In this document: positions 34,845-55,362 of the stretch, piece after piece
Layout: each line of letters begins with the position of its first letter
Numbering within the stretch: the stretch's first letter is position 1
From: Prorocentrum cordatum
Lineage: Eukaryota > Sar > Dinophyceae > Prorocentrales > Prorocentraceae
Direction of reading: 5' to 3'
NCBI GenBank assembly: GCA_963575745.1
Contig: CAUYUJ010015027.1
Coordinates: 288,796-352,795 of the forward strand
DNA length: 64,000 bases
Notes under the pieces: generated by a model
The model's database searches: none
Told to the model about the DNA's origin: nothing
Seen by the model: the letters and a program-made list of their open reading frames with translations, nothing else
Made by a program: the position numbers and the translations under genes

Positions 34845-35345
34845 ATGGCGGTGGTGATGACGATGGTGATAATGGCGTTCGTGATGATGCTGCTGTTGCT
34901 GATGATGATGCTGATGATGCTGATGATGATGGTGGTTGGAGTGGGTCGATGGTGATGGTGATGTCGTTGGTGGTGGTGATCAGGAGGAGACGGAGTAGGA
35001 TCATGGTGGTTGTAATGATTCTGGCAATGATGAGGACGAATTGGGAGGGTGGTGGTTGTGGTGCTGGTAATCGTGATCGTGGTGGTGATGATGGTGGTGA
35101 TGATGATTGTGATGATGCTGTCGATGCTGATGGCGAGGAGGATGATGCTGATGATGATGATGATGATGATACTGATGACGATGGTGATGCTGATTTTACT
35201 GGTTTCGATGCTGATGACCAGGATGATGATGATGCTGATGATGCTGCTGATGATGATGATGGTGATGCTGATGCTGATGCTGATGATGATACTGATGATG
35301 ATGATGATGATGATGCTGATGATGATGATGATGATGGTGATGATA

Positions 35346-35421
<76 letters not shown>
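34845..35421. repeat. (GAT)n microsatellite, left flank of the retroelement
   Basis: GAT/GCT/GGT triplets become a pure GAT run at 35350-35421, right up to the element's first base. Confidence 0.93.
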
Positions 35422-35424
<3 letters not shown>

Positions 35425-35537
35425 GAGTGCGCGCGCAGTAATGATGTCAGAGGGGCTGTTCAGTGAGACGAGTAGGGGGAAGGTAGCAGGAGGTTAGCGT
35501 GCCTCGCCCGTTGCCCCGCTCTGCAGCCTTTTGTTGT
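35422..35537 (+). repeat. Split direct repeat A1
   Basis: Begins TGAGAGTGCGCGCGCAGTAA and ends CTGCAGCCTTTTGTTGT. Same length as A2 and nearly identical. It may hold the promoter or 5' untranslated region. Confidence 0.9.
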
Positions 35538-35584
35538 TTCAGGGTCTGCGCTGCGCCGACCCATCCGCCACGGTGCCCCCGTGT

Positions 35585-36626
35585 ATGTCCGGCTGGCTCG
35601 GCGACGTGCTTGTTGAGGCTTCGCGGGAGGCTGTGCGGACGCTGGGCACCGCGTCCTTGGTGTGGGCTGGCCAGGGTGAGCGGTCGTGCCCCGACTGCAC
35701 CTGCTCGCCACGCCTGGCGTGCCCTGCGTTGCAGTGCCCGCCGTGCACGCTCGGGGGCGCCGCCTGCCCGAGCTGCGCGGAGGCCAGCTGCCCAGAGGCG
35801 GCGCGGGGCCTCGGCGGCTGGTGTCTCCTCGCGGTGCTGGTCGCGGCCATCGCGGGGCTGGCGGCTGGCTGCTGCCTGGGCACCGTGTGGGGCACTGGCG
35901 TTCGGCGTATGCATGGCCGGCTCGAAGCCCATCGCTCCAGGTCGTCTGATCCTGGTGTGGTATGGGGGCGCGGAGGCATATTGGCACGAGCGCCTGCTGC
36001 TCTGCCAGGTCCGGGGATCGACTTGGGTGATCGCAACACCCGATGACGACGTCTATGAAGAAGACATCATGGCGCTCGGTGGCCGTCCGTGCATGCAAGG
36101 GTCTGTGCCGCACGCTCTGCTCAAGCGCTTCGCGCCGCTCGGTCAGTTGCGCTCGAACGCGGATCGGCGCCAGATCTTCGATGATGGGATCGCGGAGGCC
36201 CAGATGCGGAAGGCTGCCCTGGGGGTGGATGGTGCCGCGGCTGACGCCGAAGCAGTTGCCGTTCGCAATCGTGTGGCCGTTCGCGGCTGTGTCGATGGCA
36301 GTGGGCTTCCTGGGGGACAGGCCGCTGCAGCGCCGCCCGCCGCAGGAGGCGCCCTGGTGCCCGCCTCCGCTGGGCCCCCGGCTGGAGCCGCCCCACCGCT
36401 GGCGGGAGGGGGAGCCCCGGCTGCCGGTGGCGCCGGAGTGCTCGCGCCCCCGCCCGGGGCCGCCGTTGGGCCCGCTGGGCCTGCCGTGGTGGCGCCCGCC
36501 GGGGGTGCGCAGTGGATCGTCATGGTAGCCGCCCCTCGTCTTTTCCGTTTTCGTGGCCCTCTTCGGGCCAGTCAGCTGTTGGTCTTCTCCGAGGGCGACG
36601 GCGAGATTTGTTTCAGGCATGGCTGA
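35585..36626 (+). pseudogene. Retroelement gag-like ORF1, frameshifted
   Basis: The ATG at 35585 opens MSGWLGDVLVEASREAVRTL, a Cys-rich segment (about residues 30-75) and a hydrophobic stretch GGWCLLAVLVAAIAGLAAG that looks like one membrane segment. Near 35910-35930 the frame changes. The second frame continues with RLILVWYGGAEAYWHERLLL, TWVIATPDDDVYEEDI and a Pro/Ala/Gly-rich tail to the stop at 36626. I recall this arrangement (short N-terminal helix, membrane segment, WHERL and TPDGDVY-type motifs) from dinoflagellate retroelement models; that is memory, not a search. The product would be the presumed structural protein. Confidence 0.6.
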
Positions 36627-36689
36627 TGATCGCCAGCGTGACCTCTTGCCGCTGCCTCGCCACCAGGATTGTTAGGGCCCTGTGGTCTA

Positions 36690-38745
36690 GTCAGTCGTGG
36701 AGTTCGACAACGTATTTGTAGGCGCGCCTGGTTGGACAGGCGCTCTGATGAAGTCACTTGGGCCCTCAACGAGCTGGGGGGCGTCGGGGGCGCATCGCCT
36801 TGCGGGCCTGGAGGTGAGCAGACGAGGGCTGCCCTGTCCCTGGTCCGAGATGCTGCTGCCGCCGCACCTCTGCCGAAGCAACGGCTCTCCCCGCATGAAG
36901 CCCTTGCGGCGCTTCTGCGCACAGGCGCTCGCTACGGAGGCAGCGAGCGTGCCGGGGACATTGCACCGTTTGGCTCGGCGCCGGTTTCCTTGCCGAGTCG
37001 CGACCTGGTCGGGGGGGACATCTACAAGGTTTTGCCCCGGGCTGCGTCGCGCAAGTTCAAGCGGCTTCGCGACGCCATTTTTCTCAGCGACGAGGAGTAT
37101 GCATTACGTATCAAGAAGGAGAGGCTGCCCAACCTGTACTTCGACCCATTGCTGGAGGCGCATCCTGCTAAGTGGGAGGGAGCCGAGAACGTCGTGACAG
37201 GGGTCTGGCACGATGGATTCGAACCTACAAGGAAAGGGTTGTTCTGTTCTCTGTTCGCTAGAAGATGATGGTTTACGATTTATATGTGATTCACGAAGGA
37301 GCAACATTCGATTTGCTTTCCCAGACGCCATTCAACACGCAACTGGGGGCTCTCTCAGTCGGTTGGAGGCCGCCTCAGGCCAAAATTTTCACGCAGCCAG
37401 CTTCGACATTAAATACTACTTCCATGAGCTCAGGATTGACGAGGAGCTGTCCCAGCACTTCACGCTACCACCAGCGCGAGCGTCGGCAGTGGGGGCGCAC
37501 GTCATCAGCGGCATCAGGGCGGAGCCGAACGAGTTCATGTACCCTGCGCTCCAGACGCTGCCGATGGGGTTCTCGTGGGCCACGTGGGCTGCCCAACTGG
37601 TCCATGAGGAGCTCCTACTGCGCGCTGGGCTTCCTCCTGCCCGGCTCCTGCGAGACGGCGCGCCGCCGCCAGTCCTGGACGAGGGGGCGGCTCACTTGGC
37701 GTACGTTGACAACTTAGGGGCCATTGGCAGCAGCGAGGAGGAAGTGGGGGAGCTACATCGGCAGGTGCCCACTGGAGCACGGAAGGCAGGTTTCCAAGTT
37801 CACGAGATCGACAGGTCAGCACCTCGATGGGCATCGCGGGTGTGCACTTTGGCGGCCAGAGGCAGGTCGCCGCGCTCTCGGCCAAGCGGGCGCGGCGCCT
37901 CTACGCGGGACTCCACGCCCAAGCGCGGCGAAGTCGTTGCGCGGGCAGGGAGATTCGGGCTACGCTTGGGCACCTGCGCTTCGCTTTCCTGCTGCGGCGA
38001 CCCTGCCCGTCGCGCCTCGCCGCCTCCTTCGTTTTCGCCGAGTCGGCGGGGGGGGGGGGCGAGAGCATCTGGCCCAGCGCGAAGCGGGGGCTGCTCATCG
38101 CCGCGGCCATTCTGCCGCTGGTCTACGCGGGCCTCGGGGCGGGCTGGCTTGACCAGGTGGTGGCCACTGGTGCTGGCCAGACTGGTCTTGGCGTGCGCGT
38201 TGCCGGGTGGGCGCCTGCCGGCGTTCGCCTCGCGGGTCGTCGAGACGAGCGCAGGAGGCTCAAGAAGTGCCCGCGTCGCAAGCATCGCGAGGTGGCCTTG
38301 GCCGGCTATGACATAGGCGAACCCCCAGTCGATAGGAACGGCAACCTCGTCTACGACGGAGAGGGGTCGGCCTGGCTCTCCCGTGGCGACTTCCCAGACA
38401 TACAGCCCACTGCCGTCGCAGATGCGAAGCGGGCCGCGGTGGCCAAGCGGCCTTGTGGGGAGCGCGAGGGGGCCGTCCGCGTCAAGGAAGCGCGCGGCGT
38501 CAAGCAAGGCTTCAAGCGCATCGCGCGACGTGGCCGCTGGCGTCGCTGCAAGGTGCTCATGCTGGTCGACAACGTGGGCCTCGTACTTGCCCTTCAGAAA
38601 GGCAGGTGCAGGGGTCCCGCGCTGCTGGGCCAACTACGACAGATGGCTGCCCTTTAGCTCGCCACTGGACTGCGAGCGCAGTGCCGGTGGATACCATCCG
38701 AGGTCAATCCCGCCGATCGTCCATCTCGACAGCGGGAGCCCGCGC
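36690..38745 (+). pseudogene. Retroelement reverse transcriptase plus RNase H, broken
   Basis: Three frames make one protein. The upstream frame (to about 37260) holds LSPHEALAALLRTGARYGG and FKRLRDAIFLSDEEYALRIK. The next (37260-37830) carries the catalytic core: RFICDSRRSN, motif A FDIKYYFHELRI, motif B LPMGFSWATWAAQLVHEELL and motif C YVDN, where most RTs have YxDD. The third (to 38657) has the connection and RNase H region, including LMLVDNVGLVLALQKGRCR. A TAG at 38655 interrupts it, and the same frame then reads CRWIPSEVNPADRPSR, the conserved end of the RNase H domain in Ty3/DIRS-type elements. Two frameshifts and one stop make it inactive as is. The YVDN variant, as I recall, is usual for this lineage. 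Confidence 0.8.
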
Positions 38746-39084
38746 TGAGCAGCTCTCCCCCTGGATGGCGCCCTCCTCCTGGGCTGGCTCATCCCGATGC
38801 CTGGGGTGACTACCAGGGCACCCGCGGTCAGACGGAGGCCCGCAGCAGGGGTCGCGTCGCGCAACGTGACCAGGCGCCTGGAGGTGGAGGCAGCGCTGCC
38901 AGTTGGGAAGCTGGGCTCGCACGCCCGGGCGCCGCTGCCGCTGGGGGGCGCAGGGTCAGGACTATCCGAGCCACCTGTCCTGCCCCGCCCCCCGGCGACG
39001 CCAGCAGGGCTTCGCGGCGGCTCGCGGAGATCGCGGGTCACAACCGCGACAAGGCAGGCTTCCGCTCGGCGCTCAGCCGGCCGC

Positions 39085-39790
39085 GGGGGCATCTCGCATC
39101 TGGAGAGCATCGTGGTCGGGCCAGCGCCGATCGAGGACTGCGACAGGCGCGTCGGGGAGTTCTTCCAGTTCGCCCGCCGCCGGGACTCGATGGGTCAGCA
39201 CCCTAGACTACTTGGAGGAGGCCCTGCTGGAGTGGGCCGACCAGGCGCGCTTGGGCGGCAGGAGGAGGCACGACGAAGAGAAGCTGGAGGCAACTGTCCT
39301 CCTCTTCTAGCCGAACCTCCAGAGGCCCAACACCAAGCCGCTGGCCAGGTTCGAGAGGCCCCATCAAGGCGTGGAGACGACGGCGGCCAGCATTTGGTCG
39401 GTTGCCATCGCCGTATCCGACCGTCTGCGGACTTGCTGTGGCCCTTCATCTCATGGGTCGCACGGGTGTGGCCGTGGCCGTGCTGGTCGCGCTCAGCGCC
39501 TACTTGCGGCGCGGGGAGCTGCGTGGGCTCCGCGCGCGCGATGCCGTCCCGCCCGCAGTTGGCTTCGGGCCTGCCTACCAGAGCTGGTCGCTCGTTCCCG
39601 GGCCCTCCGACGATATCGGGGGCCCGCAGTTGGAGGTTCAGAGGCGCGAGCGGTGGGCCGGCATCAGCTGATCATGCGCGAGAAAGCAAGCGCGGTCAAT
39701 GCCAGGCTGGTGGAGCGTCCGCCGGGCGTCCAGGAGCACCGCGAGCTCTGCTACTCGCACCCTGGCGACATCCTCCTCGGCGGGGTCCGA
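39085..39790 (+). pseudogene. Retroelement tyrosine recombinase, internally deleted and frameshifted
   Basis: The N-terminal part reads LESIVVGPAPIEDCDRRVGE and FFQFARRRD, then in another frame STLDYLEEALLEWADQARLG. The catalytic domain begins AVLVALSAYLRRGELRGLRA with RDAV, matching the first catalytic Arg box of integrases. After VPGPSDD the sequence jumps to QRRERWAGI and MREKASAVNARL, resembling the C-terminal RGRW and RYEKA segments. The H-x-x-R box is missing, implying a deletion of tens of codons, and the position expected for the nucleophilic Tyr reads Arg. Assignment rests on order and motifs and is less certain than the RT. Confidence 0.6.
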
Positions 39791-39804
39791 GGACCCCGAC
39801 CGCT

Positions 39805-40477
39805 TGGCTGGGAGGCGGTGACGTCTTCCTTGGCATCTTCGCCGGGACCGAGGGGATTGGCAGGGCAGTCGCAAGGAGCGGCATCTCGTCGCTAGAGATC
39901 GAGCTCGAGCTCGGCACCGACATTCTTGCGCCTGGGATCATGCCGGCGCCGCTGGAAGTGATGAGCGCGGGCAGGGCGCAAGGAATCTACGTGGCTACGC
40001 CGTGCCGCTCCTTCAGTATAGCGCGACGGGCGCTGCGAACCTCGCCCATGCCCAGTGCCGCGCGTTCTCCTGAGCGCATTTGGGACTTCTTGGATCTCTC
40101 CGCTAAAGATGGAAAGGTGTATGGAAGGCAATGGGTTCGCGGGAGTCACTGGCGTGCTTGTTCGGCAGGCCCTTCGACGCAACATCCCGAGCACGATCGA
40201 AAACCCCGCAACCTACATGCTCTGGAACATGCCGATTTTGAAGAGCCTCCGCAACTCAAAGAATGCGAAATTCATCGTTTTTGACCAGTGCCAGTTCGGG
40301 GCAGAGTTCAGGAAGCGCACCTCCATCCTGATGTCTTCAGATTTTGACGACTCGTTCTTCGATCACAAGTGCACTGGCATGGCAGGCCTGTGCTCCCGCT
40401 CCAATAGGCCACGTTCACACCTCGAAGGAAACGGGGCGGCCCGCTGGATGACGGATCGTGCTGAACGCTACCCCTAG
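39805..40477 (+). pseudogene. Retroelement C5-cytosine methyltransferase-like domain, one frameshift
   Basis: Frame 1 reads DVFLGIFAGTEGIGRAVARS, a motif-I-like SAM loop, then IYVATPCRSFSIARRAL, a motif IV Pro-Cys box. After a frame change near 40115 come IENPATYMLWNMP (ENP in place of the usual ENV of motif VI) and IVFDQCQFGAEFRKRTSIL, recalling the QRRxR-type motif VIII. It ends MTDRAERYP and a stop at 40477. Cytosine methyltransferase genes have been reported in some dinoflagellate retrotransposons. Whether this domain methylates DNA or is a divergent relative is unknown. Its place after the recombinase is where some DIRS elements carry a different (Dam-like) methylase. Confidence 0.65.
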
Positions 40478-40643
40478 TTGTGCTCCGCCGTCGCCGACAC
40501 GATTCGATCCCTGTGGGCCCAGAAGCATGTCGTGGGTGTTTCATCTCTGTCAAGAGCCAGACCGTGATCTGCGGCTTCTCCCTCAACCCACCGGAAGCCA
40601 ATGACAGACCTGAAGGCGGGAACTCTTTTCCAGATGGGGTACG
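40478..40643. other. 3' untranslated part of the retroelement
   Basis: Between the methyltransferase stop and B1. No motif seen. Confidence 0.6.
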
Positions 40644-40734
40644 GGACACTGCTTCAATCGATTTCAGTGGTGCATGGTGGAAAGCCTGCAGTGGATCGCT
40701 CTGGGATATCAGTCTATCGGCCGCGTTAAAGCAT
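40644..40734 (+). repeat. Split direct repeat B1
   Basis: Starts GGACACTGCTTCAATCGATT and ends GGCCGCGTTAAAGCAT. Followed by only CA before A2. Confidence 0.88.
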
Positions 40735-40736
40735 CA

Positions 40737-40852
40737 TGAGAGTGCGTGCACAGTAATGATGTCAGAGGGGCCGTTCAGTGAGACGAGTAGGGGGAAGGTA
40801 GCAGGAGCTTCGCGTGCCTCGCCCGTTGCCCCGCTCTGCAGCCTTCTGTTGT
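40737..40852 (+). repeat. Split direct repeat A2
   Basis: Starts TGAGAGTGCGTGCACAGTAA and ends CTGCAGCCTTCTGTTGT; copy of A1. Confidence 0.9.
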
Positions 40853-40873
40853 GCCCGACCCAACCCTCCCTGG

Positions 40874-40964
40874 GGACACTGTTTCAATCGGTTTCAGTGG
40901 TGTTTGGTGGCAAGCCTGCAGTGGATCACTGTGGGATATCATCAGATTGGCCGCGTTAAAGCAT
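40874..40964 (+). repeat. Split direct repeat B2 (right end)
   Basis: Starts GGACACTGTTTCAATCGGTT and ends GGCCGCGTTAAAGCAT, the last bases before GATGAT repeats resume. Confidence 0.88.
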
Positions 40965-41214
40965 GATGATGATGATGATGATGCCGATGATACTGCTGGT
41001 AATGCTGATGATCATGATGCCGATGCTGATGCTGTTCATGGTGATGATGGTGATGGTGGTGGTGATGGTGATGATTTAGGTGGTGAATATGATGACAATA
41101 ATGATGCTGCTGGTGGTGATGATGCTGATCTGATGGTCGTGAGGCTGTTGATGGTGATGCTGATGGGGATGTTACTGATCATGTTGATGCTGATGGGGGT
41201 AATGATTGTGATGG

Positions 41215-41252
<38 letters not shown>

Positions 41253-41490
41253 CGGGTGACGATGTTGATGCTGTTGATGAAAATGCGGACGATGACGATG
41301 ACGATAACCGTAAGTATGACGACGATGATGATGAATATGAGGATGACGGCGATGATGAGGATGGTGATGGTGATGATGGTGATGATGACGATGCTGATGG
41401 TGACGATGACGATGATGCTGATGATGATGCCGGTTATGATGATGGTGGTGTTCACGATGATAATGATGATGATGAGGAGGAAGAGGATCA
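40965..41490. repeat. (GAT)n microsatellite, right flank of the retroelement
   Basis: GAT triplets restart at the first base after B2 and continue with GCT, GGT and GAC variants. Confidence 0.93.
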
Positions 41491-42008
41491 TGATGATTCC
41501 ACAAGAACCGTTTTTCGTTCCGTGGGGGCCGTTAAGCCTCGAGTAGAGCGTCTCGTTCGCGGGTTCCTTATTGAGCCCGTTCGGCGTCAGGGCCCGCTCG
41601 GCCGATTAATGGGTAGTGGAATGGGCTCAAGTCCCAGATGGTGGTGGGAACTTGGCCCGTTCGGCAGCCAAGCGCGCTTCATCCCAGGGCCGCACGGCAG
41701 CCCAATGGGCTCAGACGTCGAATGAGCTGAGAACGGAGCCCTGGGGCATGGGCCTTCAGAGGCCTCCGGAGCAACAAGATGAGACGCGCGGGGATCTCGA
41801 GCCACGCGTCCGAGGCCTGAAGTTCGGCATGCGGCGCTCCAGAGAGGGCTCGCAGTCGAGGGTCGAGGTCGTTGACGTCTCTTCCTCGGCGGAAGCTGGC
41901 GGAAGGCGATCGCGAAGTGGAACCGAGGTCCGTTGTGCCAGCGGAGGCTGGGCAGAAGGCGGTCGGAGGAGAAGCTGCGCCCCAAAGTCGGGGGTTGCTG
42001 AGGGTGCG
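41491..42008. other. Weak coding-like stretch
   Basis: A + frame at 41740-41910 reads RPPEQQDETRGDLEPRVRGL and VEVVDVSSSAEAGG, mixed and charged, but codon bias is modest and no acceptor/donor pair is convincing. GAGCCCGTTCGGC and GGCCCGTTCGGC repeat locally. Confidence 0.25.
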
Positions 42009-54735: not shown

Positions 54736-55006
54736 ACACACACACCTATATATATATGTATATATACACACATACATACACATGTATGCACGTATGCATG
54801 CATGCTTGTATGCATGCATGCATGCATGCATGTATGCATGTATACAGATATGCATGTATGCATGTATGCATGTTTGTATGTATGCATGTGTGCATGTATG
54901 TATGCATGCATGCATGTTTTTATCTATACATGTATGCATGCATGCATGCATGCATGCACGCACGCACGCACGCACGCACGCATGCATGCATGTATGTATG
55001 TATGTA

Positions 55007-55040
<34 letters not shown>

Positions 55041-55362
55041 GATGGATGGATGGATGTATGTACGTACGTACGTACGTACGTACGTACGTACGTATGTATG
55101 TATGTATGTATGTATGTATGTATAGATGTATTGATGTATAAGTGTATAGATGTAGGTGTATGTATGTATGTATGTATGTATGTATGTAGGTAGGTAGGTA
55201 TGTATGTATGTGTGTATGTATGCATGTATGTGTGTATGTATGTATGCTTGTGTGTGTGTTTGTTTGTATGTATGCATGCATGCATGCATGCATGCATGTA
55301 TGTATGAGTGTGCACGTGTATATGTGTATGTGTGTATGCCTGTATGTGTGTATATTCAATAT
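54736..55362. repeat. Tetranucleotide tract (CATG, GTAT, ACGT, GCAC)n
   Basis: About 630 bp of phase-shifting four-base repeats: TGTATGCATGCATG, GCACGCACGCAC (54955-54980), TATG, GGAT (55040-55055), ACGT (55060-55093), then TATG and GTAG. CATG, GTAC and ACGT are self-complementary. Cys/Met/Tyr or His/Thr/Tyr ORFs are artefacts. Confidence 0.95.

Follow-up and report, generated by a model that had tools for sequence, protein, structure and literature searches.

The 64,000-nt stretch of Prorocentrum cordatum DNA analysed here (the window, in whose numbering all positions are given) contains an element of about 5.55 kb lying between two ATG microsatellites, and it raises the questions of what class this element belongs to and how it came to sit inside a simple repeat. 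An initial annotation of the locus had described a complete-ended PAT/Ngaro-type retroelement, with 116-bp and 91-bp repeat pairs arranged as A1-open reading frames (ORFs)-B1-A2-B2 and with a reverse transcriptase (RT), RNase H, recombinase-like and methyltransferase-like series between A1 and B1. Alignment recovered both pairs in the order described, the A pair being 94% identical over 120 bp (94.8% over the 116 bp) and the B pair 87% identical over 97 bp (86.8% over the 91 bp), and remnants of the four coding regions follow one another from A1 to B1 in the same order. Judged by its sequence, the element is a tyrosine-recombinase (YR) retrotransposon with split direct repeats and PAT/Ngaro-type anatomy. 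We consider it very likely that the window holds a dead copy of a family that integrates through the B-A junction of a circle into a microsatellite specific to that family, ATG in the family of the window copy and a TA or alternating repeat in a second one.

Copies across the genome share their ends and junction

The B1-A2-B2 unit was searched against the whole genome (4.13 Gb, 21,875 contigs). The search gave 103 candidates, of which 40 were scored, the place in the window among them, and all 40 matched B1-A2-B2 at 76-100% identity. Twenty of the 39 other places were read at length, giving 21 stretches with the window. A1 was also present in 14 of these, and the other seven had no A1 within the stretch read. 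When the copies were set side by side, A1 started ATGATG|AGAGTGCG (the window copy has ATGATGAGAGTGCG at its left end), B2 mostly ended GCATC|ATGATG or in a sequence close to this, and GCATC ATG AGAGTG was the usual reading of the internal B-A junction. The junction and the two outer ends have only about ATG(A) in common, which fits what would be expected if a B-A circle recombined with an ATG repeat. Two of the copies (L014 and L015, on contigs C13204 and C1325) are the same copy with the same flank, pointing to a duplicated assembly stretch or two haplotypes.

The window copy itself is a decayed, dead element. Its RT-to-methyltransferase series is scattered over several frames with stops, its YR lacks the part between box I and the RGRW box, and its repeats have diverged (106 of 112 positions identical between A1 and A2, 78 of 87 between B1 and B2). 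Thus, of the complete-ended copy originally described, the ends stand, as they recur in other copies, and the intactness does not. No inverted repeat pair of at least 25 bp was found between 34400 and 42000, so that the inverted terminal repeats of DIRS proper (DIRS-1 type) are absent there. An LTR retroelement or a LINE was ruled out because the repeats are split and because the Pol of a Prorocentrum relative is co-linear with an RT-RNase H-YR protein, as described below.

Most copies lie in ATG microsatellites

We scored the 3' flanks of 30 loci, 29 of them independent (L015 repeats L014) and including the window copy, for their match to the ATG unit over the best 45 of 120 bases; 923 stretches of the window, treated in the same way on both strands, served as background. 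A score of at least 0.7 was reached by 25 of the 29 flanks as compared to 12 of the 923 background stretches, and one of at least 0.6 by 27 of the 29 as compared to 77 of the 923. Left flanks, scored over a fixed 60-base window, reached at least 0.5 in 14/14 and at least 0.6 in 13/14 cases; the corresponding background was 4.8% and 2.2% of 4709 windows.

Could the copies lie in microsatellites merely because the genome is so rich in them, or because insertions at other sites were lost? The window does contain 31 arrays above the score used. However, 19 of these are of the GGA/CCT type and only four of the ATG type, two of which flank the element, and yet it is ATG that is used; the bias is therefore for ATG and not for any microsatellite. 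Together with the rarity of ATG-like stretches in the background and the different repeat occupied by the second family, this makes mere abundance a most improbable explanation.

It is also unlikely, if less so, that the element, instead of targeting ATG and TA repeats, made or lengthened them after insertion, for example by slippage from the short end sequences. The start of A1 and the end of B2 are ATG and could seed such a repeat, and some right flanks are short (L004, L018 and L024). Against this, many flanks are long and imperfect, like old arrays, those of the window copy measuring about 340 bp (left) and 535 bp (right). Moreover, the copy L048, with A repeats identical at 112 of 112 positions, scores perfectly for ATG over the 60 bp on its left and is followed on its right by some 120 bp of repeat. 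Elsewhere in the window, positions 54794-55306 hold a block of 4-base repeats (ATGC and then ATGT units), unlike the mostly trinucleotide arrays found in the rest of it.

A second family lies mostly in TA-type repeats

The second family was entered through a methyltransferase-like domain match in contig C5329 (L051), downstream of which B1 and B2 are the same over 133 bp with A2 between them. A genome search with this stretch, extended by 14 bases beyond B2 into the repeat, gave 42 matches in total. Seventeen were B-A-B places at 94-100% identity, 19 covered no more than roughly the first 108 bp of A2 and thus correspond to A1, one was a second piece in contig C3126, and five were weak (69-74%). 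The outer ends in C5329 are 6.8 kb apart, and some of the A1-type matches have no B-A-B nearby. A1 of this family starts AT|GCGTTG, B2 ends GAGAT|ATAT and the junction reads GAGATGCGTTG.

In 14 of the 16 B-A-B places other than C5329, the match continued 11-14 bases past B2 into the repeat. Among 17 flanks from nine copies, 14 were TA-like, scoring at least 0.54 over 24 bases, a level chosen after the values were seen and reached by 1.3% of window positions; right flanks except that of C5329 were scored from about 14 bases or more beyond B2. The right flank of C5329 (TA/ATAC) first suggested such a target, and without it the independent evidence stands at 13 of 16 flanks. The second family, the one further family read, thus shares the layout of the ATG family and lies in a different microsatellite. 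The methyltransferase-like domain gave 10,217 first-look candidates in the genome, and many of the 129 scored matches were at 33-41% identity in open frames of up to 1972 aa. These long frames look like further families of the same kind.

Gag, RT, RNase H and YR

Coordinates of the window copy are collected in Table 1. Its Gag-like ORF resembles, on comparison by eye, the N-terminal half of a 636-aa frame (P0004) in the copy L040. In L040 this frame is followed by one of 1464 aa that carries RT, RNase H, part of YR and a methyltransferase-like domain, and both frames are open as they stand. Pfam gave RVT_1 alone in the L040 protein P0003 (E 0.0014, below the cut-off), family and PDB sequence searches with the window frames and L040 returned weak RVT_1 and DNA_pol_viral_C rows only, and viral contigs gave no match to P0003.

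Table 1. Features of the window copy and its flanks
Feature	Position	Strand	Evidence and remarks
(ATG)n microsatellite, left flank and target	35086..35424	.	Tandem Repeats Finder, period 3, 113 copies (~340 bp)
A1, left terminal repeat	35418..35537	+	94% to 40733-40852; left end common to other copies
Gag-like ORF, apparently N-terminal part only, 379 aa	35487..36626	+	Stop-to-stop frame
Reverse transcriptase region	37198..37810	+	RVT_1 E 0.015, under Pfam cut-off; motif tables
RNase H remnant, LMLVDN...KGR...WIPSEVNPADRPSR	38550..38740	+	Broken by TAG at 38655-38657
Tyrosine recombinase remnant	39375..39671	+	Compared with P0007 and L040; box I region AYLRRGEL abuts QRRERW, intervening stretch missing
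Methyltransferase-like domain, two frames	39820..40477	+	Motifs FAGTEGIG, ATPCRSFS, IENPATYMLW, DQCQFGAEFRKRT
B1	40643..40739	+	87% to 40873-40969
A2	40733..40852	+	94% to A1; B1/A2 junction GCATCATGAGAGTG fits circle junction
B2, right terminal repeat, continuing into ATG repeats	40873..40969	+	87% to B1
(ATG)n-like microsatellite, right flank and target	40963..41497	.	Tandem Repeats Finder, period 3 (~535 bp)

The Prorocentrum gene model P0007, which runs from RT through YR to methyltransferase motif I, is co-linear with the metagenome protein P0018 through RT, RNase H and YR (871 columns, 28% identity, E 1e-63), and P0018 in turn matches RVT_1 (E 3.5e-7) and Phage_integrase (E 6e-5, under the curated cut-off). 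This co-linearity, together with the repeat order, supports the PAT/Ngaro-type anatomy originally assigned. In a tree of 11 rows, which carries no family names, six Prorocentrum rows formed one group and P0017 and P0018 another, with three of the eight inner branches drawn open. Related gene models, P0007 among them, retain box I, the PTKTG stretch and the RGRW box of YR. The window copy lacks a segment reaching from about PTKTG to the LRHAG box, as apparently do L031, L032, L033 and L036, and these five would form a second set of copies without a YR core.

Two further proteins were noted. P0002, listed under the green alga Pyramimonas sp., is 68% identical to the Prorocentrum RT over 38% of the query, perhaps by contamination or transfer. 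P0013, a Prorocentrum gene model found with the RT query, combines this match with SAP, cold-shock and methyltransferase domains and may be a false join of element and host gene.

An RT with YVDN appears to have been under selection

RT motif C of the window copy reads YVDN (37702-37713). Among the 21 copies 19 were readable at this motif, with DN in 14, DS in two, GN in one, DD in one (L033) and a broken motif in one. The family as a whole departs from the usual YxDD, and the first letter is often C or H instead of Y. Two environmental relatives (P0014 and P0019) read YVDN, and two others (P0017 and P0018) read YIDD.

We determined dN/dS for ten copies, giving 45 pairs per domain. The pair L040-L047 gave 0.09 for RT and 0.18 for the methyltransferase, and the window copy against L040 gave 0.16 and 0.29; dS between subfamilies is often above 1, so that these ratios are rough. 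Close or decayed pairs were higher, for example 1.5 for YR between L037 and L041. The low RT values between subfamilies suggest that selection has acted on an RT in which Asn replaces the second Asp of the motif, and we infer that the YVDN enzyme would be a working one. YVDN in such elements was not found in print in the one search made, whose hits concerned other elements.

The domain behind YR is probably a divergent C5-type methyltransferase

The predicted model of a homologue, P0020, came closest to C5 DNA methyltransferases, with DNMT1 giving the best rows and DNMT3 rows standing lower. PF00145 gave no row up to E 10 in the three members scanned, the HMMER filters dropping most weak matches, and family and PDB sequence searches with the methyltransferase part returned unrelated weak rows only. 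The domain is thus probably a divergent methyltransferase of the C5 type, and it may be active.

A lineage without the YR core has multiplied

Compared with L047, the copies L048, L049 and L050 have five deletions in common, of 218, 55, 332, 28 and 112 bp. In the protein table, YR box I and a portion of the methyltransferase are absent from these copies, and their Gag-like frames are open at 611-625 aa. These copies look young because their A repeats are identical at 110-112 of 112 positions. The methyltransferase deletion was found in seven of 12 young copies aligned (L019, L020, L021, L023, L024, L025 and L030), of which L019-L021 are the same copies as L048-L050. This multiplied lineage without a YR core was probably moved in trans by the proteins of relatives.

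A proposed route of integration

We propose that an inserted copy would be transcribed and that Gag and a Pol protein with RT, RNase H, YR and methyltransferase would act on the transcript. The B1-A2-B2 arrangement would allow circularisation of the cDNA, and the resulting B-A junction would read GCATC-ATG-AGAGTG in the ATG family and GAG-AT-GCGTTG in the second. YR would then recombine this junction with a matching short core of 2-4 bases in a microsatellite, (ATG)n or, for the second family, (TA)n or an alternating repeat, and integration would leave no target-site duplication.

Homologous recombination is thought to need far more than 3-4 shared bases. The overlap of junction and target is only about 3-4 bases, which argues against a route in which the host joins an ATG-ended cDNA to ATG repeats by homologous recombination, and so does the retention of the YR boxes in related gene models. 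The decay of YR in the copies read and the multiplication of a lineage without part of YR would favour such a host-driven route, which we nevertheless regard as very unlikely.

Several observations weigh against integration by YR into a family-specific microsatellite. Over the fixed 60-base window, right flanks reached 0.5 in only 16 of 20 cases and 0.6 in 15 of 20, with one right flank (L043 and L044) counted twice in the 20. The left flank of L042 is GAG-rich and the weakest of the left flanks, L004 and L024 have only short ATG runs on their right, and simple repeats are common in the window. The end and junction sequences fit a short shared core and the absence of a target-site duplication, but the targets are themselves repeats and no empty site was seen. 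In the second family, the right flank of C16275 is GC-rich past the bases covered by the match, the left flank of C14077 is (CT)n, and that of C16198, an exception to the TA type, is only CATACACAT; the choice of the TA level after inspection of the values belongs here too.

The proteins add to these points. YR of the ATG family has no Pfam match of its own, and no copy read has every part intact. The C-terminal part of YR in L040 differs from P0007 and looks frame-shifted. P0007-P0013, P0015 and P0016 come from gene models, of which several seem to pass over parts of the sequence, and the gene models read YSLR at the position of His-x-x-Arg, the usual YR motif. Some dN/dS pairs are high, namely L033-L034 for RT (0.68) and L033 with the window copy for the methyltransferase (0.78).

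Taking the evidence together, we lean towards a wider reading, held with less confidence than the origin proposed for the window copy. Dinoflagellates would harbour a set of YR families, each with a microsatellite class of its own as target, reached through a recombination core of 2-4 bases, and with a working YVDN RT and a fused C5-type methyltransferase. The simple repeats abundant in the genome would offer all of them a common and safe place to insert, and lineages with a defective pol but a retained Gag would spread with the help of intact relatives.

Comparison with known systems

In the papers searched, target choice of YR retrotransposons seems to be little described. Here it can be read from the sequence in two families, making the recombination core directly testable, as are the YVDN motif in an RT of low dN/dS and a methyltransferase seemingly distinct from the published Dnmt3 type. 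Insertion into simple repeats may explain how such elements could accumulate in a genome of 4 Gb while sparing its genes, and it offers a possible link between simple repeats and transposons in dinoflagellates. In the literature on YR retrotransposons that was searched, which included PMC3411680 and left out most subscription papers, no microsatellite target was found beyond that of TATE in telomeric repeats. Insertion into a chosen microsatellite, on which the initial annotation is silent, is in our view the chief novelty. A term search of the accessible text found no mention of DIRS in the Prorocentrum genome paper (PMC10666404) or in a review (PMC11453091).

The initial annotation implied that split repeats were new for dinoflagellates, but this kind of element was already known from the group. 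SymbioDIRS-Dnmt3, described from Symbiodinium in 2018, has A-coding-B-A-B repeats, RT, RNase H, YR and a methyltransferase of the cytosine type, according to the accessible part of the report (PMC5890265). It is possible, though we think it rather doubtful, that the present element is simply a member of those published families. The repeat order, the host group and the cytosine-type methyltransferase are alike. However, the SymbioDIRS-Dnmt3 enzyme is of the Dnmt3 type and shares an ORF with RT while YR is separate, whereas in L040 RT, RNase H, YR and a divergent methyltransferase follow one another in one frame. SymbioDIRS methyltransferases were sought with Pfam profiles such as PF00145, which gave no row here, within the filter limits given above. 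In S. kawagutii the insertions are mostly intronic and intergenic, with no microsatellite target mentioned in the text available (PMC5890265). The two are set apart by published description and not by Symbiodinium sequences. The methyltransferase of the DIRS class is given there as Dam-like, of the adenine type (PMC5890265), while the one described here is C5-like in appearance and C-terminal.

Beyond dinoflagellates, PAT and Toc3 elements are alike in having A1-B1-A2-B2 split direct repeats and YR, and the accessible description places Toc3 members in algae, with a Gag that lacks a zinc finger (PMC4157794). Ngaro elements of Cafeteria share the A1-[ORFs]-B1A2B2 layout with Gag, RT, RNase H and YR. 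Some Ngaro types prefer particular insertion places, in virophage-like elements, which was suggested to depend on ORF1; in the part of that paper available, no microsatellite target is described and the methyltransferase is absent from the domain list of the legend (PMC8547959). VIPER of kinetoplastids likewise has A1-B1-A2-B2 repeats, and kinetoplastid TATE lies in telomeric repeats (PMC6681497, as far as accessible), whereas the elements described here lie in interspersed ATG or TA microsatellites according to family. So far as the literature search shows, three features are new, namely targets in interspersed microsatellites that vary from family to family, the fusion of RT, RNase H, YR and methyltransferase in this order, and YVDN in elements of this type.

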